From Citricoccus sp. K5 (GTDB lineage: Bacteria > Actinomycetota > Actinomycetes > Actinomycetales > Micrococcaceae), in assembly GCF_902506195.1 (NCBI RefSeq), contig NZ_LR732817.1, positions 327,147 to 391,146 of the forward strand: 64,000 bases of DNA, in the 5' to 3' direction. Below, one piece after another: positions 1,780 through 12,791 of this stretch. Under the pieces are notes generated by a model, which worked only from the letters and a program-made list of their open reading frames with translations, searched no databases and was not told where the DNA came from. The translations under genes and the position numbers were made by a program. Positions within the stretch are counted from its first letter, which is position 1, and every line of letters begins with the position of its first letter.

Positions 1780-2139
1780 CTACCGGCGCTCGAGCGCCCG
1801 CAGGTGCTCCGGGGTGGTGGCGTCCACATGCCGCTGATAGTCAGGGTGCTTCTCGATCCACCCCTTCACATACGGGCAGACCGCGACGATCCGGTATCCC
1901 TCGGCGATGGACGCGTCCAACGCTCCGCGGACCAGGGTCGAGGCGAGTCCGTGACCGCCGTACTCCTCGGCCACCTCGGTGTGCGGGAAGATCCGCTGCC
2001 GGGTCCCATCGGCCGCTGCATGCTCGGTGAAGTAGGTCTTGCCGGCCGGCTCGCCGGAGGCGTCCACGTGGATCTCGTACCGCGGCTTGCTGCCCTGGAT
2101 GACCTGCGGGTGGTCCAGGGTCGGTGTCTGCTCACTCAT
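1780..2139 (-). CDS. small GNAT-family N-acetyltransferase
   Basis: 119 residues, about the size of the one-domain Acetyltransf_CG (GCN5-related, NATD1/YidJ-like) family. The acetyl-CoA loop is visible as EEYGGHGLASTLVRGALD (about residues 58-75), and the VCPYVKGWIEKHPDY stretch near the C-terminus is typical of this subfamily. The acceptor is unknown. Its ATG overlaps the stop of the upstream pirin gene as ATGA, so the two are probably translationally coupled and form the 3' end of a three-gene operon with the AhpD-like gene. Confidence 0.85.
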   Translation of the reverse strand: MSEQTPTLDHPQVIQGSKPRYEIHVDASGEPAGKTYFTEHAAADGTRQRIFPHTEVAEEYGGHGLASTLVRGALDASIAEGYRIVAVCPYVKGWIEKHPDYQRHVDATTPEHLRALERR

Positions 2140-3299
2140 GGGATCTCAGGTCTCCTTGACGGTGGGTTGGTGCGGGGTCGCATGCGGGTGGAGGGCAGCG
2201 CCGGGGCGGGCAACGGGGCGGGGGTGTCCGCCGGGAAGTCGCCGAACTGCGGGAAAGTCCGGCCATCGCGGTAGCTGGTGCCGATCGTGGCGTCCAGCAG
2301 GGAGCCGGACACCGGGGCGCCCAGGGGAGTGCCGGCGTCCGCCAGTGGGGAATCCTCCCACGGCGCCTCGAAGCCCATCTCGGCCTGGTAGGCGGCGCGC
2401 CAGGCCACGATCTCCTCGTGGGTGCGGCCCACGAAGTTCCACCACATGATGATCTGCTCGCCCAGGGGCTCGCCGCCGATCAGCAGTGCGGTGACGGGGT
2501 CCGGCCCGGAGATGATCCTCAGGCGGGTCCGGCCGGGACCGACGAAGCCGAGGTGGTCCTCAGGGATCTCGACCCCGTCCAGGGAGAGGGCCCCGGTGAC
2601 CTGGAGCAGGCCGTGCTCGTGGCCGGCGGGGACGTCCACCTCCAGCGTGGTGCCGGGGTCCATGCGCAACTCCACGCCCGTGAGCGGGAGGTGGGTCTTC
2701 ACCGGGGAGGTGGAGCCCAGCAGGGAGCCGAGGAAGACGCGGGCGGTGTAGCCGGGCCCGGTGACCGGCTCCGGACGGTGGGCCTCGAGCGAGGGAGCGG
2801 TGGCACGGGCATGGTCCGGGAAGGCGTACCAGAGCTGGGCGCCGTGGAGGACGGTGGTGTCCGCCGTGGAGTACTCCGAATGGGTGATCCCGGAACCGGC
2901 GTTCATCAGGTTGACCTCACCGGGGCGGACGGTGGCCCAGTTGCCGGCGGAGTCGACGTGGTCCACCCGTCCGGTGAACAACCAGGAGACGGTTGCCAGC
3001 CCCGTGTGCGGGTGACGGGGGACCGCCATGCCTCCGGTGGCGGAGACATCGTCCGGCCCGTAGAAGTCCAAGAAGCACCAGGCGCCAATCAGGGATCGGG
3101 CCCGCTGCGGCAGGGTGCGTTTGACGGTCATGGCGCGGGGACCGCCGAGGGGGACCGCGCGTGGCTCGAGCAATTCAACGGTGCCCGTGCCACCGGCGTG
3201 TGGGTCCACGCCGTCTGAGAGGCCCTCGGTGAAGCGCGGTCCGGCGGCGGGCCTGTTCCGGCAGACGGTCTCCTGCGGGTCAGTCTCGGTGTTGCTCAT
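2136..3299 (-). CDS. pirin family protein (bicupin)
   Basis: The 387-residue protein has the pirin N-terminal cupin (about residues 60-190, with the PRHPHTGLATVSWLFTG metal-site region and a later H-S-E segment in GITHSEYS) and the pirin C-terminal domain (about 215-320). Pirins bind a non-haem metal; some oxidise quercetin and others act as redox-sensing regulators, and the sequence does not decide which. The first 55 residues, before PRAMTVKRTLPQRARS, are longer than in most pirins. The gene follows the AhpD-like gene by 24 bp and overlaps the GNAT gene by 4 bp. Confidence 0.9.
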   Translation of the reverse strand: MSNTETDPQETVCRNRPAAGPRFTEGLSDGVDPHAGGTGTVELLEPRAVPLGGPRAMTVKRTLPQRARSLIGAWCFLDFYGPDDVSATGGMAVPRHPHTGLATVSWLFTGRVDHVDSAGNWATVRPGEVNLMNAGSGITHSEYSTADTTVLHGAQLWYAFPDHARATAPSLEAHRPEPVTGPGYTARVFLGSLLGSTSPVKTHLPLTGVELRMDPGTTLEVDVPAGHEHGLLQVTGALSLDGVEIPEDHLGFVGPGRTRLRIISGPDPVTALLIGGEPLGEQIIMWWNFVGRTHEEIVAWRAAYQAEMGFEAPWEDSPLADAGTPLGAPVSGSLLDATIGTSYRDGRTFPQFGDFPADTPAPLPAPALPSTRMRPRTNPPSRRPEIP

Positions 3300-3323: not shown

Positions 3324-3803
3324 TCAACGGCGCCTGACCGGGTGGTGGGACAGGATGGAGATGCGGTTGGTGACGTTCATGGTGATGGCCAGCCACTGGA
3401 CGGCGGAGTACTGTTCGTCCGTCAGCACGTGGTGGCTCATCAGCTGGCTGACGTGCTGGTCCTCCTGGCCGGGTAGCAGGGTGACCGTCTCGGCCAGGTC
3501 CAGGGCGGCCCGCTCCGTCTCGCTGTAGAGGGCCTCCGCCTCCCGCCAGGCGGCCAACAGGCCGAGGCGCTGGGAGTCGAGGCCGGCGTCGATCCCGTAG
3601 CGGGTGTGGACCTCAAGGCAGTAGGCGCAGCCGTTGATCTGGGAGACGCGGAGGTTCACCAGCTCCACGAGCTGATCATCCAGGCCGGCCTTCCGGGCGG
3701 CGGTCTTCGCGGCGACGGACAATCCGCCCACGGCCTTCCACGCGGCGGGGTCGGACTTGTCCAGATAGAAGGCCAGCGGATCCTGGCGTGCCTCAGAGCT
3801 CAT
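3324..3803 (-). CDS. carboxymuconolactone decarboxylase/AhpD-like protein
   Basis: 159 residues with the AhpD-fold active-site signature CAYCLEVH (CxxC plus downstream His) near residue 58, the mark of alkylhydroperoxidase-like disulfide reductases. The substrate is unknown. It is the first gene of the AhpD-like/pirin/GNAT operon, a combination that suggests an oxidative or electrophile stress role (inference). The start ATG at 3803 lies 49 bp after the DUF5129 stop, so read-through from that gene is possible. Confidence 0.88.
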   Translation of the reverse strand: MSSEARQDPLAFYLDKSDPAAWKAVGGLSVAAKTAARKAGLDDQLVELVNLRVSQINGCAYCLEVHTRYGIDAGLDSQRLGLLAAWREAEALYSETERAALDLAETVTLLPGQEDQHVSQLMSHHVLTDEQYSAVQWLAITMNVTNRISILSHHPVRRR

Positions 3804-3852: not shown

Positions 3853-5388
3853 TCAGAAGCTGGAGGAGGAGCCGGCGCCGGAGAAGCTGCCGCCGGAGCT
3901 GCCGTATCCGGTCGAGGAGGACGAGGAGGAGGCCTCTGCCTGCTCTCGCGCCGTCACCACGTGGGACTGGCCCGAGGAGTATCCGAGGTGGAAGGCGGTC
4001 GCGGTCCAGAACCAGCCGGGCTGGTGCACCGTGTCCAGGATGGAGCCGGGACGGCGGGAGCCGCGGTGGCGTTCCCGTTCCAGTTCTCCCTGCAGAGTCT
4101 GGCGTTCGGCATCGGACGTGGCGAAGGCATCGATCTGGGCCTTCGCGTAGTCGTCCAGCAGTCCGGTCAGGCGGACCCGGAGGGCATCCAGGCCGTCGAG
4201 GGCCTCGTCCGGGGAGAGCTGGCCGGTCTCCAGGCCGGCGCCCAGCCGCTCCAGTTCCCGTTCCGCCTCGTGCCGGAAGGATCGCAACGGGGTGAGCTGA
4301 TCGGCCTTGAGCTTGGGCTGTCCCGTCACCAGCTCGTCGATCTGTCCCAGGTCCTCGCGCATCGGCGCGGTCTGGATGTCCCAGGCCTCGGGCCAGCCCG
4401 GGTACTTGTTCAGCAGCGTGTTCGTGCTGCCCACGGTGTCGTCGAGCTGGTCGAGCTCCTCCGCCTGCTTCATGTACGCCGTGATGGCCTGGCGGTGCTC
4501 CTTGCGGTGCAGCTTCTTCGCCGGGATGCCGGACAGCCGGTCGTTCTGGCGGGCGGCCTCCACATAGCGTTCGTGGAAGGTGCGGTAACGCTCGAGCACC
4601 ATGGCCCCGTACTTCGAATCCTCCGGCACGGTATGGGCGTTCAGCTCGGTGGCCTCGAGGTCCGTGCTGACGTTGGCGAAGGCCTGGTTCCCCCGGTCCA
4701 GTTCCGCCTGGGCCTTCTGCCGCTGCTTCTTCCGGCCGGCCGCGACGGCCCCACCGAAGATGCCGCCGACGACCACCACGATCGCCCCGCCGATCCACAC
4801 CCCGGGATGCTGGTACCACGGCCGGTTCATCACGGCCGCGGCGGACTCGGTGGCGTCCAGGGCGGCCTGCGTCCAGTTGGCCTCCTGCAGCGACTCGACG
4901 GCGTCCTCCCGGATGTCCTCCTGGGTCTCGAGACCGACCTTGCGGTCCTCGCCGAAGTACACCCCCTGCAGCCGGCCCTCCGGATCGATCGCGTAGATGA
5001 ACAGGCCGTCCGTCCACTTCTGCCCGTCGTCGCTGATCCACTCCGGATGGTTCTCGCGGGCATCGGCCAGGAGGCGCTCGTTGAGGTTGGACTCGGCCTC
5101 GCCGCGCTGGGTCCAGACCACCACGGTGGTCGGCTCGCGGAAGTCGATGTCCGTCAGGCCCTCGCGCAGGGTCGGCTCGTGGATGACCCCGGCACCGTCC
5201 TCGAGGATGACCTCCTCGGCCTGGTCGGCCTGGGCCGGGGAGGCGCCCAGGACGAGGGCCGCCGGCACCGCCGCCAGCAATCCGAGCGCCAGGCTGAAGG
5301 CCGCCACCCAGCCGGCAGCCGTTCTCGCCGCCCTGGTGGCGAGAACGGGATGCAGGCCGGTTCGGACATGGGCGGTGTCGGTGGGCAT
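3853..5388 (-). CDS. DUF5129-type secreted/membrane-anchored protein
   Basis: A 511-residue protein with a signal sequence (hydrophobic about residues 26-50, cleavage likely after AQA), an extracellular domain resembling the TPM/YgcG fold (about 60-185), a transmembrane helix near 196-216 and a long charged, helical cytoplasmic part. The tail is Ser/Gly-rich, ending SGAGSSSSF, as in many TPM-domain proteins. I assign it to actinobacterial DUF5129; the function is unknown. Acidic and polar residues dominate the C-terminal half (long helices, possibly coiled coil). Confidence 0.75.
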   Translation of the reverse strand: MPTDTAHVRTGLHPVLATRAARTAAGWVAAFSLALGLLAAVPAALVLGASPAQADQAEEVILEDGAGVIHEPTLREGLTDIDFREPTTVVVWTQRGEAESNLNERLLADARENHPEWISDDGQKWTDGLFIYAIDPEGRLQGVYFGEDRKVGLETQEDIREDAVESLQEANWTQAALDATESAAAVMNRPWYQHPGVWIGGAIVVVVGGIFGGAVAAGRKKQRQKAQAELDRGNQAFANVSTDLEATELNAHTVPEDSKYGAMVLERYRTFHERYVEAARQNDRLSGIPAKKLHRKEHRQAITAYMKQAEELDQLDDTVGSTNTLLNKYPGWPEAWDIQTAPMREDLGQIDELVTGQPKLKADQLTPLRSFRHEAERELERLGAGLETGQLSPDEALDGLDALRVRLTGLLDDYAKAQIDAFATSDAERQTLQGELERERHRGSRRPGSILDTVHQPGWFWTATAFHLGYSSGQSHVVTAREQAEASSSSSSTGYGSSGGSFSGAGSSSSF

Positions 5389-5460: not shown

Positions 5461-6135
5461 TCAGTCCTGCACCACAGTACCGCCGGTGAGGCGAGCCAGC
5501 TCGGGCGCGGACATCGGCCGGTTGAAGACGGGCCCATCCGGCTCCAGGGCCCGGCCGGCGGCCAGGCCGGGCAGCAGCACCGGGGTGAACCCCAGATCAC
5601 AGGCCAGTTGCCCGACGGCGGCCGCGGCCTCCTCGCTGTCCGAGGCCACTCCCAGCCCTCGCCGCACGGGGCCCGGGGAACGGCCCGCGGTGTCCAGGTC
5701 CCAGTGGCTGACGTGGTTCAGGGCCTTCACCACCGTGGCTCCGGAGAACCGGGCGGCCACAACTGAAGAACTGGACCGGCCGGCGTCGAGCCCGGACTGG
5801 AGCCAGCCCGGGAGCGGCTCCTCGGCCCAGCGGTTGGTGGCGTCCACGAGGAGGCAGCCGTCCAGCCAGTCCGGGTCCACGGAGTCGAGGTCCTCCTGGG
5901 GGACCATCAGCACCACGATCGGCTGTTCCCCACCGTCCTGCGCAATCTCCTCCGCCGCCACCGCGGTGGCCCGGGGAGCGTACTGGGCCAGGTGCAGGCG
6001 CATCGCGGTGGGCGGCCGGCTGGACGCGATCCGCACCGGGAGGCCGGCCGAGGCGGCGGCCCGGGCGAGCGAGGTTCCCGCCCGGCCGGCGCCGAGGATG
6101 TTGAGGGGGCCGGATGTGCCCGGAAGCCCACTCAC
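5461..6135 (-). CDS. NADPH-dependent F420 reductase-like oxidoreductase
   Basis: 224 residues with an N-terminal Rossmann fold: the glycine motif ILGAGRAGTSLARAA (residues 13-27) binds a dinucleotide, and the KALNHVSHWDL segment matches the family NADP oxidoreductase, coenzyme F420-dependent. Whether F420 is really used cannot be read from the sequence. Its start overlaps the stop of the RraA-family gene by 4 bp (ATGA), making it the last gene of an FAH-RraA-oxidoreductase operon, so it may reduce a product of that pathway. Confidence 0.82.
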   Translation of the reverse strand: MSGLPGTSGPLNILGAGRAGTSLARAAASAGLPVRIASSRPPTAMRLHLAQYAPRATAVAAEEIAQDGGEQPIVVLMVPQEDLDSVDPDWLDGCLLVDATNRWAEEPLPGWLQSGLDAGRSSSSVVAARFSGATVVKALNHVSHWDLDTAGRSPGPVRRGLGVASDSEEAAAAVGQLACDLGFTPVLLPGLAAGRALEPDGPVFNRPMSAPELARLTGGTVVQD

Positions 6136-6602
6136 GGCGTGACCAGGATGCCGTCCTCATCCGCCCAGAGGGTGGCACCCGGGGTGAAGGTCACACCGCC
6201 GAACTGGACGGGGACGTCCATCTCGCCGGCCCCGTCCTTGGCGGACTTGCGGGGGTTGGACCCCAGGGCCTTCACGCCCAGGTCCAGGGTGCGGACCACG
6301 GCCCGGTCTCGGATGGCCCCGTGGATGACCACTCCGGCCCAGCCGTTCCGCACGGCGGCCGCGGCGATGAGGTCGCCCATCAGGGCGGACTCCAGGGAGC
6401 CGCCGCCATCCACCACGAGGACTGCGCCGTGCCCGGGGGTGTTCAGGATCTGCTTGACCAGCGCGTTGTCCCGGTGGCAGCGGATGGTCCGCACGGGGCC
6501 GGTGAACACCGCCCGGGCGCCGAGGTCCTGGAACTGGACCGAACAGGACTGCAGCGTCTCGTCCGCGTCATAGAGGTCGCACGTGGTGAATCCGGCGGTC
6601 AT
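6132..6602 (-). CDS. RraA-family protein, probable aldolase/decarboxylase
   Basis: 156 residues, full length for the RraA family (GRAVFTGPVRTIR-like core, VVDGGGSLESALMGD, FGGVTFTPGATLWADEDGI). It has D77, R98 and D99 spaced D-X20-R-D, the signature of divalent-metal 4-hydroxy-4-methyl-2-oxoglutarate/oxaloacetate lyases. As I recall the E. coli RNase E inhibitor RraA, it lacks both Asp residues. I therefore favour a metabolic lyase over an RNase regulator. The start at 6602 is chosen because it forms an ATGA overlap with the FAH gene; an in-frame extension to 6938 would run inside that gene and has no family support. It overlaps the downstream oxidoreductase in the same way. Confidence 0.9.
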   Translation of the reverse strand: MTAGFTTCDLYDADETLQSCSVQFQDLGARAVFTGPVRTIRCHRDNALVKQILNTPGHGAVLVVDGGGSLESALMGDLIAAAAVRNGWAGVVIHGAIRDRAVVRTLDLGVKALGSNPRKSAKDGAGEMDVPVQFGGVTFTPGATLWADEDGILVTP

Positions 6603-8358: not shown

Positions 8359-10908
8359 GTGCACCACGTGACCAGCCCGCAGAACGCCCCCGCATCCACC
8401 TACCGCCTGCAGCTCACCGCGGACTTCACGCTCGACAGCGCCCGCGAGATCCTGCCCTACCTGCGGGACCTGGGAGTCGACTGGCTCTACCTCTCCCCGA
8501 TGCTCGGTGCAGAGGAGGGCTCCACCCACGGCTACGACGTGGTGGACACCACCCAGGTGGACGACGCCCGCGGTGGGGAGACCGGGTTGCGTGAGCTGGC
8601 TGAGGCCGTGCACGCGGCCGGCGGCGGAATTCTCGCCGACATCGTGCCGAACCACGTGGGCGTGGCCACCCCCAAGGACAACGCCTGGTGGTGGGACCTG
8701 CTCAAGCACGGCCGAGCCTCCAAGTACGCGATGGCCTTCGACATCGACTGGGCCGCCGGGGACTCCCGCATCTGGCTGCCCGTCCTGGGGGACGGCACCG
8801 ACGAGGACCCGGAGGCCGAGCTCGCGAGGCTGCGCGTGGTGGACGGGGAGCTGCACTACTACGAGAACGTCTTCCCCCTGGCGCCGGGCACCGAGGAGGC
8901 GGCGCACGCCGCCGTCGGGAACACGGTTGGGGACACAGCCGGGTGCGAGGCCGGGGAGGAAGCTGTAGCCCGCGCCGCACACGATCTGCAGAACTACCGG
9001 CTGATGCCGTGGCGCGAGGCGGACGAGAACCTCAACTACCGCCGCTTCTTCGCGGTCAACTCCCTGGCCGGGGTCCGGGTGGAGATCCCGCGGGTCTTCG
9101 CCGAGACCCACCGCGAGATCCTGTCCTGGGTCCGCGACGGACTCGTGGACGGGCTCCGCGTGGACCACCCAGACGGGCTGGCGGATCCGGGCGGATACTT
9201 CGAGAACCTGCGGCAGGCCACCGGGGGGATCTACCTGCTCGGGGAGAAGATCTTGGAGTCCGGCGAACGACTGCCCGCCGCCTGGCCCATGGACGGCACC
9301 ACCGGCTACGACGCCCTTGGCGAGGTGGACCGCATCCTGACGGACCCGGCCGGTGCCCCTGAGCTCGATGAGGTGGCCGGACGGCTCGGTGGGTGGGGCC
9401 GCACCGAGGATCCCGCCGGAGAGACGGCGGCCGCCGCCGAGGTGGTGTGGGCGGAGATGATCCACGGGACCAAGCGTGCCGTGGCGGATGGCATGCTCCG
9501 CTCCGAGGTCGAACGCCTGGCGCGCCTCGTCCCCGGACTGGTCCCGGACGACGAGGGGACCGGCGAGGACCTCGTCCAGGACGCCCTGGCGGAACTGCTC
9601 GCCTGCTTTCCCGTCTACCGTTCCTACCTGCCGACCGGACGCCATCACCTGGACGACGCCGCCGCTGAGGCCGTGCGCCGCCGTCCCGAGCTGGCGGAGG
9701 CGGTCGAGGCACTCCTGCCGCTGCTGGCCGATCCGGACCACCCCGTGGGTGAACGCTTCCAGCAGACCTCTGGGATGGTCATGGCCAAGGGTGTAGAGGA
9801 CACCGCCTTCTACCGGTACACGCGGTTGGCGTCGCTGAACGAGGTCGGCGGGGACCCGTCGTCGTTCGCGCTGGAGTTGAAGCGGTTCCACGAGCTGCAG
9901 GGGGATCGGCAGGCGCGCATGCCCCGCACCATGACCACGCTCTCCACGCATGACACCAAACGCAGTGAGGACGTCCGTGCCCGGATCGACGTGCTGTCCG
10001 AGATCCCGGGGGAATGGGTCCGCACCCTGGACCGTCTCAGGGAGCTGGCCCCGCTGGGGGACGGCCCGTTCGAGAAGCTGTTGTGGGAGACCATCGTGGG
10101 CGCCTGGCCGGTGGACGGCTCCCCACTTCAGACCCAGCGGCTGGCCGACTACGCGCTCAAGGCCGCCCGCGAGGCCGCGACCCGCACCACCTGGACCGAA
10201 CAGGACGAGGAGTTCGAGGCCGCGCTCGCGGACCTCGCCGAGCGGGCCACCGGGACGGGCGAGCTGCGGGACGAGATCCAGCGCATCGCTGACCGGATCG
10301 CCGTTCCCGGCATGACCAATCAGGTGGCCATGAAGCTCATCCAGCTCACCATGCCCGGCATCCCGGACGTCTACCAGGGCACTGAGGTTCCGTTCCCCAC
10401 CCTCGTGGACCCGGACAACCGCCGGCCCGTGGACTTCCGGGAGCGGACGGCCCTGTTGGCGCGGCTCGACGACGGGTGGGAGCCCGAGTTCCCGGCTCCG
10501 GCAGAGTCGGAGGACGGTTCGACCCGGCCCGACGGCGCCGCGCTCGCCGAGTACGCCGCCGGACTGAAGATGCTCATCACCTCCCGCGCCCTGCGCGCCC
10601 GCCGGGAGCACCCCGAGTGGTTCACCCGCTACGAGGAGCTCGACGTCCTCGGCGAGGCATCGGACCACGTGGTCGCCTTCACCCGGGGCGGGTGTATCAC
10701 CGTGGCCACCCGGTGGCCGCTGGGGCTGGAGGATGAAGGCGGATGGGGAGACGCGGCTGTGGTGCTGCCCCGCCAGACCATGGTGGACCTGCTGACCGGG
10801 CGCCGCTTCGGCGGGGCCTTCACGGACGGCGCCACGCGTCTGGCCGAGGTCTTCGAACGCCACCCGGTGGCGCTGCTGGTGCCGGAGGACGGGAACACGC
10901 TGCGATGA
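8359..10908 (+). CDS. treY: maltooligosyltrehalose synthase TreY
   Basis: An 849-residue GH13 enzyme that turns the reducing-end alpha-1,4 bond of maltodextrins into alpha,alpha-1,1. Visible family regions: [16 protein letters not shown] at the N-terminus, DIVPNHVG (region I), [13 protein letters not shown] (region II, with the nucleophile Asp), LGEKILE (region III, with the acid Glu) and [15 protein letters not shown], which is TreY-specific. GTG at 8359 is used; GTG at 8368 is an alternative and neither has a strong Shine-Dalgarno. The stop overlaps the treZ start by 4 bp, so the two enzymes are translationally coupled. Confidence 0.96.
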
Positions 10909-12791
10909 GCGCGGCGAGGATGACCCTGCCGCCCCTGTCCGTGTGGGCACCGCACGCGCGGACGGTGGAGCTGGTGTTCACCGAGCACGAGCCCGGGGCC
11001 GTTCATGACGGGGAGAACCGATGGGCGATCGTCGCGTCGGGGGCAATGGAACCCGCCGAGGACGGTTGGTGGGTCCCGGAGGTGCCGGTGGACGCGCCCT
11101 TCGGGGCCGACCACGGATACGGCTACCGGGTGGACGGCGAAGGGCCGTTCCCGGACCCGCGCTCGCGGTGCCAGCCGGACACCGTGCACGGGCCCTCACG
11201 GCTGTTCGACGCCTCGGCACAGGGCTGGAAGGACGGTGATTGGGCCGGCCGCCCGCTGCGGGGTGCGGTGATCTACGAACTCCACCTCGGCACCTTCACG
11301 GACGAGGGAACCCTGGATGCCGCCGCCCAGAAGCTGGACCACCTGGTCTCGCTCGGGGTGACCCACGTGGAACTGCTGCCCGTGAACTCCTTCGGCGGGG
11401 GGCACAACTGGGGCTACGACGGCGTCGGCTGGTACGCCGTGGACGCCTCCTACGGTGGGCCGTCGGCCTATCAACGCTTTGTGGACGCCTGCCACGGGGC
11501 CGGGCTGGCCGTGATCCAGGACGTGGTCTACAACCACCTCGGACCCTCCGGGAACTACCTCCCGCAGTTCGGCCCGTACCTGACCGAGCACTCCACCGGC
11601 TGGGGCAGCGGGCTCAACCTGGACGGCCCGGACTCGGACGAGGTACGCCGGTACATCCTGGACAACGCCCGGATGTGGTTCGAGGACTACCACGTGGACG
11701 GGCTCCGGTTGGATGCCGTCCACGCGCTGCGGGACACCCGTGCCGTGCACCTGCTCGAGGAGCTGGCCGCGGAGACGGACGCCCTGTCAGAGCGGCTGGG
11801 CCGTCCGCTGGTGCTCGTGGCCGAATCGGACCTGAACGATCCGCGGCTCATCGCGGACCGGCCCGGACCCGGGGCCGATGGTGCGGGCGGCTACGGACTG
11901 ACGGGGCAGTGGTCGGACGACTTCCACCACGCCGTCCACGTGGCCCTGACCGGGGAGACGGACGGTTACTACGCCGACTTCGCGCCCCTGTCCGCGCTGG
12001 CCAAGGTGCTCAACGGCGGGTTCTTCCACGATGGCAGCTGGTCCTCCTTCCGCCAACGCCACCACGGCCGGCCGCTGGGGGAGCACCTCCCGGCCGAGGC
12101 CCTGGTGGTCTGTATCCAGAACCACGACCAGGTCGGCAACCGGGCCGCCGGCGATCGCATGGCCGCGAGCCTCGATGAGGGTCAGCTGGTGATCGGCGCC
12201 GCCCTGCTGTTGACCGGTCCCTTCACCCCGATGCTCTTCATGGGAGAGGAGTGGGCGGCCTCCACCCCGTGGCAGTTCTTCACAGCGCACCGTGAACCGG
12301 AGCTGGCGCAGGCGGTGACGGAGGGCCGGCGCCGGGAGTTCGCCCGCATGGCCTGGAGTCACGACGCGGTGCCGGACCCGCAGTCCCCGGAGACCTTCGC
12401 CGCCTCGACGCTGCGGTGGGACGAGGCCGGGACCGGCCGGCACGCCCGGCTGCTGGAGCTCTACCGAACCTTGGCCCGGATCCGCACGGAGCGTCCCGAG
12501 CTGACCGATCCCGACCGCTCCACCACCCGCGCGGTGGTGGATGACGAGCGCCACTGGGTGCGAATGGACCGGGGCGTGGCCGCGGAAAGTGGCGCTGGCG
12601 CCGACGTCGGACCGGGTTCTGTGGTCCTGCTGGCGGCACTGGGTGCGGAGCCGATGCCGATCCCGGATGAGTTGCGCGGATACCGTCTGCTCGCCGGCCA
12701 CGGAGCCGACGGCCCGCGCACGGAGGTTCCCGGTGACGCCCGCGTACAACCCCACGGATTCCTGCTCCTCGGGCGCGGCGGTCAGTCGTAG
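10905..12791 (+). CDS. treZ: maltooligosyltrehalose trehalohydrolase TreZ
   Basis: A 628-residue GH13 enzyme that releases trehalose from the maltooligosyl-trehalose made by TreY. Domains: N-terminal beta-sandwich ([14 protein letters not shown], residues 11-24), then the catalytic barrel with [13 protein letters not shown] (region I), [10 protein letters not shown] (region II, Asp nucleophile), [13 protein letters not shown] (region III, Glu) and [10 protein letters not shown] (region IV). The ATG at 10905 overlaps the treY stop (ATGA). Its 3' end overlaps the convergent DUF4032 gene by 10 bp. Cytoplasmic; makes trehalose from glycogen or maltodextrin. Confidence 0.96.

Follow-up and report, generated by a model that had tools for sequence, protein, structure and literature searches.

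A short RraA-family protein of Citricoccus sp. K5 as a probable divalent-metal-dependent lyase with FAH-family gene partners

The 64,000-nucleotide stretch of Citricoccus sp. K5 DNA analyzed in this study (the window) contains an RraA-family gene, P0001, whose product is probably a divalent-metal-dependent carbon-carbon lyase with the RraA/HMG-CHA aldolase fold, of the oxaloacetate decarboxylase/aldolase type. In favor of this assignment we counted the alignment of the D-X20-R-D motif, the invariance of R98 and D99, the Glu102 found in Gly77 proteins, K119, the fold matches, the precedents offered by FAHD enzymes and FlDet, the tct-gene neighbors (7 of 80 loci), and the paralogs in which an RraA domain is fused to an FAH or an NAD-binding domain. 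Against it we counted the absence of Glu-199, the Val102 residue, the combination of motif and RNase ES inhibition in RraAS2, and the optional character of the partnership with FAH.

The rraA gene and the co-directional run around it

The gene, whose best named match is a protein of Citricoccus zhacaiensis (94% identical), belongs to a run of seven co-directional genes in the order FAH, RraA, oxidoreductase, DUF5129, CMD, pirin, and GNAT (Table 1; gene annotation covered the first 14 kb of the window). The stop codon of the upstream FAH gene (P0002) and the start codon of P0001 share an ATGA, and the stop codon of P0001 shares a GTGA with the GTG start of the downstream P0003. The coupling to an FAH hydrolase and an NADP oxidoreductase, as claimed by the original prediction, is thus borne out, and since P0001 overlaps both genes, it is probably co-translated with them. 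The four genes 3' of P0003 follow with gaps of 72, 49, 24, and -4 bases. The nearest PDB sequences are 6j57, 8gsr, and HpaG 1gtt for P0002 and 4huj and STEAP3 2vns for P0003.

Table 1. Positions in the window of P0001, its motif codons, and the genes of the co-directional run
Feature	Position	Strand	Remarks
RraA-family gene P0001	6132..6602	-	ATG start, 156 aa; Pfam RraA-like 156.3 bits; NF006875 206.2 bits
D77 codon (first Asp of D-X20-R-D)	6372..6374	-	kept in 106/109
R98 and D99 codons	6306..6311	-	kept in 109/109
FAH-family gene P0002, 297 aa	6599..7492	-	FAA_hydrolase 207.2 bits; start codon chosen, an alternative GTG upstream is also open, to 7594
NADP-oxidoreductase-fold gene P0003, 224 aa, F420_oxidored/STEAP-like	5461..6135	-	PF03807 41.7 bits
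DUF5129 protein	3853..5388	-	PF17173 385.7 bits; co-directional, 72 bp past P0003
Carboxymuconolactone-decarboxylase-family (CMD) protein	3324..3803	-	PF02627 55.1 bits
Pirin	2136..3299	-	PF02678 and PF05726
GNAT (Acetyltransf_CG)	1780..2139	-	PF14542 82.8 bits; 4-base overlap with pirin

A promoter scan found no promoter. A terminator-like hairpin of 19 pairs lies at 1686 to 1727 of the window, in the 326-bp gap past the GNAT gene, and was called on the plus strand, that is, opposite to the direction of the run. On the other side, a divergent alpha-amylase-family gene (8359 to 10908, plus strand) is followed by a second large open reading frame (10743 to 12791, plus strand), and the two presumably resemble the trehalose synthesis genes TreY/TreZ.

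The overlapping, co-directional genes agree with the earlier description of P0001 as part of an operon, and a small one at that, but its qualification as catabolic is a guess, because no ring-cleavage gene was detected by Pfam in the run (first 14 kb of the window) and the CMD family, although named after carboxymuconolactone decarboxylase, is a broad one. The catabolic role is also unproven because the neighborhoods of RraA vary among genomes, FAH-oxidoreductase pairs occur without RraA, and the adjacency of FAH is limited to few genera. The use of aromatic acids, which had been put forward as well, finds little support: a search for LigB-type genes (PF02900) gave no match in the genome, the same search being positive in 4 of 14 controls, and this result, together with the lack of ring-cleavage neighbors in the run, led us to rule out a protocatechuate 4,5-cleavage operon. 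The rejection is not exclusive, since the genome has HpaD, which we take to be VOC type, and one member of the run belongs to the CMD family.

The D-X20-R-D motif and the predicted fold

The D-X20-R-D motif, which comprises the metal- and enolate-binding residues of the HMG/CHA-type class II pyruvate aldolases, occurs once in P0001, at D77, R98, and D99. As a string it is weak evidence, since it arises in 5% of shuffled P0001 sequences (10,044 of 200,000, preserving composition only). However, the three residues align with D102, R123, and D124 of the HMG/CHA aldolase 3noj from Pseudomonas putida, and among 109 distinct orthologous sequences, own included (tblastn over 142 selected loci, identical sequences counted once), every sequence has R98 and D99, and three have another residue instead of D77; it is the alignment with catalytic residues combined with conservation that makes the motif strong evidence. 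The original prediction was therefore right about the motif, and it was right as well that E. coli RraA lacks both aspartates, since the protein of MG1655 (b3929), 43% identical to P0001, has Ala at position 77 and Gln at position 99. In addition, K119 is kept in 105 of the 109 orthologs and corresponds to a Gly in E. coli RraA.

The three orthologs that have Gly instead of Asp at position 77 all carry Glu102, compared with an acidic residue at 102 in 9 of the 106 sequences with Asp77 (Fisher p 0.001, with rows that are not phylogenetically independent, because two of the three exceptions share one genus). These orthologs correspond to a second metal-site arrangement, G-X20-R-D-X2-E/D, reportedly described by Mazurkewich in 2014. 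P0001 itself has Val at position 102, and its alignment stops at residue 181 of 3noj, so that the metal ligand Glu-199 lies beyond the end of P0001. With neither an equivalent of Glu-199 nor an acidic residue at position 102, neither metal-site arrangement is complete in P0001, D-X20-R-D aside, and the missing Glu-199 is, as judged from the alignment, a real gap in the analogy with the aldolase. Short RraA proteins with reported activity likewise do without Glu-199.

According to passages of PMC5065237, most homologs have one of two motifs required for metal binding and catalysis, the motif-bearing homologs are likely class II pyruvate aldolases, and enzymes of this type decarboxylate oxaloacetate; in the 3noj aldolase, Arg-123 stabilizes the enolate of pyruvate, and the metal has Asp-124 and Glu-199 as ligands. 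The idea that motif-bearing RraA homologs are lyases is thus already in print, as those passages attest.

The AlphaFold2 model of P0001 (pLDDT of 96.5) matched the structures 1nxj (Z score of 29.8), 1q5x (29.4), 1j3l (29.3), 3noj (19.4, with an rmsd of 2.1 Å over 155 residues), and 5x15 (18.8), and the Pfam model PF03737 covers P0001 along its entire length (profile 1 to 152 of 152, gathering cut-off of 24.5 bits). The closest likeness is with Rv3853 of Mycobacterium tuberculosis (1nxj), which shares 51% identity in the structural alignment, the fold, and D-X20-R-D. The Pseudomonas putida protein (3noj), an HMG/CHA aldolase and oxaloacetate decarboxylase, shares fold and motif, but it has 235 resolved residues, with a C-terminal part that supplies Glu-199, and only 23% identity. 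E. coli RraA (1q5x), an RNase E inhibitor, has the common fold with the aspartates replaced as described, whereas RraAS2 of S. coelicolor (5x15), an inhibitor of RNase ES, has the RraA fold and the GD-X20-RD sequence but consists of a 270-residue chain, 30% identical to P0001, and looks like a member of a different subfamily. TtRraA (1j3l), in which, unlike in P0001, positions 77 and 102 are occupied by Gly and Glu, and yeast Yer010Cp (2c5q) also share the fold, and both are said to be active as HMG aldolases and oxaloacetate decarboxylases (Mazurkewich, 2014). The predicted fold alone cannot tell an enzyme from a regulator.

We infer the activity of P0001, its substrate, and the order of steps as follows. 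By analogy with the aligned aldolase 3noj, a 2-oxo acid would be bound via a metal held by D99 together with D77, the latter directly or through water, R98 would stabilize an enolate of the pyruvate type, and cleavage of the carbon-carbon bond would release CO2 or a carbonyl compound. The decarboxylation of oxaloacetate to pyruvate would be the most likely measurable activity, and the FAH partner P0002 may tautomerize or isomerize the same keto-enol system. Members of the FAH family are known to tautomerize, isomerize, or decarboxylate 2-oxo acids of a similar kind. In particular, the FAHD enzymes, which are homologs of P0002, are reported in passages of PMC10825186 to be oxaloacetate tautomerases in all the cases tested there (animals, plant, yeast, bacteria, and an archaeon), and FlDet, a protein with the RraA fold, is presented in part of PMC8563752 as a dehydratase/decarboxylase. 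We found no activity data in the open-licence literature for P0001 or its short actinobacterial clade.

Gene neighborhoods, paralogs, and FAH-RraA fusions

A match to P0001 at 1e-10 or better is present in 169 of the 197 family genomes, and 114 of them contain a near-full-length ortholog with at least 50% identity (one further genome, with the ortholog in two pieces, was left out of this number). A P0002-like FAH gene (E value of 1e-60 or better) lies within 1.5 kb upstream and on the same strand in 20 of these 114 genomes, namely, in the whole set of eight from the window's genus (counting its own genome) and in nine, two, and one genomes of three other genera; within 7 kb, the count is 25. 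Such a gene is missing beside RraA in the other 94 genomes and in 68 of the 80 named loci in the flank examined, being present in 12. The link between FAH and RraA is thus real but local, and since most RraA orthologs have no adjoining P0002-like FAH gene, the partnership is optional.

From the side of FAH, we compared the best 30 loci. In the eight loci of the window's genus, RraA is found between FAH and the oxidoreductase (which in one of them is cut by the contig end). Among the 22 loci of other genera, the oxidoreductase directly follows FAH with no RraA in the flanks of about 1.5 kb in 14, four of these oxidoreductases being only 38 to 43% identical, and lies within 3 kb of FAH on the same strand in 6 more; as for the remaining two, one contig ends 181 bp past FAH and the other genome has no match to P0003 at 1e-12. 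It follows that FAH and the oxidoreductase are the wider pair, of which RraA is an optional part.

The existence of one conserved partner for all RraA orthologs was rejected, since their neighborhoods differ by lineage. Genes of tct-type tricarboxylate transporters are located upstream of RraA in 7 of the 80 named loci, each showing at least two of the three clusters (TctC, TctB, and TctA, one representative per cluster checked), and a gene of the HpcH/HpaI family (CitE-like, one representative checked) is found on the opposite strand in 22 of 80. In the Arthrobacter/Paeniglutamicibacter group (7 of 80), genes for a KDPG-type aldolase and an amidohydrolase precede FAH and RraA. In four Brevibacterium loci, pirin, GNAT, and CMD-family genes are divergent from RraA (Pfam checked on one); the same three families occur downstream of RraA in the window.

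The genome contains five RraA-like regions, all of which keep the Arg-Asp pair, whereas the position of D77 is occupied twice by D, twice by E, and once by H. In one paralog the RraA domain stands behind an NAD_binding_2 domain in a single open frame of 486 codons on the minus strand. Another is a FAH-RraA fusion (NF009399, 827.9 bits against a cut-off of 444) at about 3278.3 to 3280.2 kb of contig 1, on the plus strand in its locus, which is followed by genes for HpaE (642.5 against 638.35, over the cut-off), HpaD (434 against 321.4, over), an HpaH-like protein (350.3 against 351.5, just under), and an HpaI-like protein (286.6 against 368.8, under). None of the five matches to HpaG in the genome exceeds the cut-off of the C-terminal model, which two of 14 control genomes pass (C-terminal model alone). 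A search with PF02962 (HpaF/CHMI) gave no match in the genome, nor did it in the controls, so that absence of this family is not shown. P0001 (49.3 bits) and P0002 (124 bits), being separate genes, both fall under the 444-bit cut-off of NF009399.

Among 296 class genomes, ours being one of them, 20 contain a fusion over the cut-off, and 3 of the 21 matches have a stop codon inside the matched stretch. D-X20-R-D is kept in 20 of 20 fusion loci, and a match to HpaE with at least 57% identity lies within the flank of about 1.5 kb in 16 of them, again including our own; of the other four, three have HpaE matches of 34 to 39% and one has none. The fusions, PRK12764/NF009399, resemble the P0002-P0001 pair in their two domains, arranged in identical order, and in their motif, but they differ from P0001 in being one polypeptide, in the longer RraA domain, and in the adjoining HpaE-like gene. 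NCBIfam gives the family no name beyond "fumarylacetoacetate hydrolase family protein." In the open-licence literature, no paper was found to mention both RraA and fumarylacetoacetate, and RraA and homoprotocatechuate were found together only in PMC5065237. New here is that the genome of P0001 also encodes, next to HpaE and HpaD, an FAH joined to an RraA domain with D-X20-R-D, and that it has no HpaG over the cut-off. This context suggests that the FAH and RraA domains work together, and the RraA domain of the fusion may be the decarboxylase of the homoprotocatechuate pathway.

It is possible to hypothesize, as a narrower form of the lyase reading whose probability overlaps with it, that P0001 is a dedicated decarboxylase for the product or the substrate of the neighboring FAH enzyme, that is, one half of a split FAH-RraA fusion, and not a general oxaloacetate decarboxylase. 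The FAH gene lies directly or closely upstream in all eight genomes of the genus and, wherever it occurs within 1.5 kb in the family, always comes first on the same strand; moreover, the fusion of our own genome stands beside HpaE and HpaD, recurs across the class, and is mostly accompanied by HpaE. On the other hand, FAH is followed by the oxidoreductase without RraA in most of the loci outside the genus, the majority of the named RraA loci have no such FAH, and the fused RraA domain is of a longer, distant type. Weighing these observations, we consider the dedicated decarboxylase a possibility to be kept in mind, but not the expected outcome.

We put forward more tentatively a wider proposal, which we regard as rather doubtful. 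FAH and RraA would together be a two-enzyme module of general use: a (vinylogous) beta-keto acid would first be decarboxylated on a 2-oxo acid bound to the metal, and the enol would next be isomerized. In Actinomycetes, the PRK12764 fusion would replace HpaG in 4-hydroxyphenylacetate degradation, its RraA domain acting as 5-oxopent-3-ene-1,2,5-tricarboxylate decarboxylase, and the window would hold a split form of the module with another substrate, the product of which the NADP oxidoreductase would reduce.

The database label and the regulation of RNase E

P0001 scores over the cut-off of the broad model NF006875, "ribonuclease E activity regulator RraA" (cut-off of 136), but under those of the enterobacterial equivalog TIGR02998 (127.7 against 241.25) and of NF009134, a putative HMG aldolase (171.7 against 196). 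The remark of the original prediction about the automatic label was therefore correct. The scores with the LigK/PcmE equivalogs TIGR02798 (41.6 against 304.5) and NF006731 (46.7 against 179) are also under the cut-offs, so P0001 is not a LigK ortholog. P0001 is likely a metabolic lyase under a misleading regulator name. The motif does not, however, exclude RNase E control. Indeed, a review (PMC10126417, in the passages concerned) states that RraAS1 and RraAS2 inhibit RNase ES in S. coelicolor, and RraAS2 does so although it carries GD-X20-RD. Likewise, the lack of RNase E had to be dropped as an argument for an enzyme, since an RNase E/G gene is present in the same genome (331 bits).

Since RraAS2 combines the motif with inhibition in a single protein, P0001 could bind RNase E/G besides acting as a metabolic lyase; however, no RraA-fold protein for which both activities had been measured was found in the literature passages, and we deem a double function unlikely. 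Slightly less probable still is that P0001 is a true regulator, which would bind the RNase E/G of the genome and lower its activity, the motif being a relic. Besides the label and the presence of the target gene, the 43% identity to E. coli RraA, the Z score of the model against 1q5x, and the inhibition of RNase ES by two RraA proteins in another actinomycete are in agreement with this view. Nevertheless, E. coli RraA does without both aspartates, yet the clade of P0001 keeps R98 and D99 in every sequence, as a relic would not, and metabolic-type genes overlap rraA on both sides. Furthermore, according to the same passages of PMC10126417, RraAS1 and RraAS2 exceed E. coli RraA by about 60 residues and share about 25% and 17% identity with it, respectively, which makes them look like another subfamily. 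Other sources, in the passages concerned, report that of two RraA proteins in V. vulnificus only one inhibits RNase E, a difference linked to hexamer formation (PMC5738090), and mention the mycobacterial rraA (msmeg_6439) only as a test gene that can be induced, next to a comment about E. coli RraA (PMC6606801).

A sugar-acid dehydratase/decarboxylase or aldolase, for which the FlDet precedent (PMC8563752, in part) and the KDPG-type aldolase and amidohydrolase genes preceding FAH and RraA could speak, is the least probable reading, because that arrangement was observed only in the Arthrobacter/Paeniglutamicibacter group and the seven-gene run of the window includes no such genes.

With the divalent-metal lyase as the preferred reading of P0001, the naming model points to a regulator of RNase E, and all 109 sampled actinobacterial relatives keep the catalytic Arg-Asp pair of an enzyme. 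With a more fitting name, an unsupported connection to RNA decay would disappear from many genomes. FAH and RraA may constitute a decarboxylase/isomerase module, as their fusions and neighborhoods suggest, and if the module works as such, it would provide a candidate enzyme for a step of the 4-hydroxyphenylacetate pathway in Actinomycetes without a canonical HpaG, and many orphan FAH and RraA genes would gain a class of substrates.
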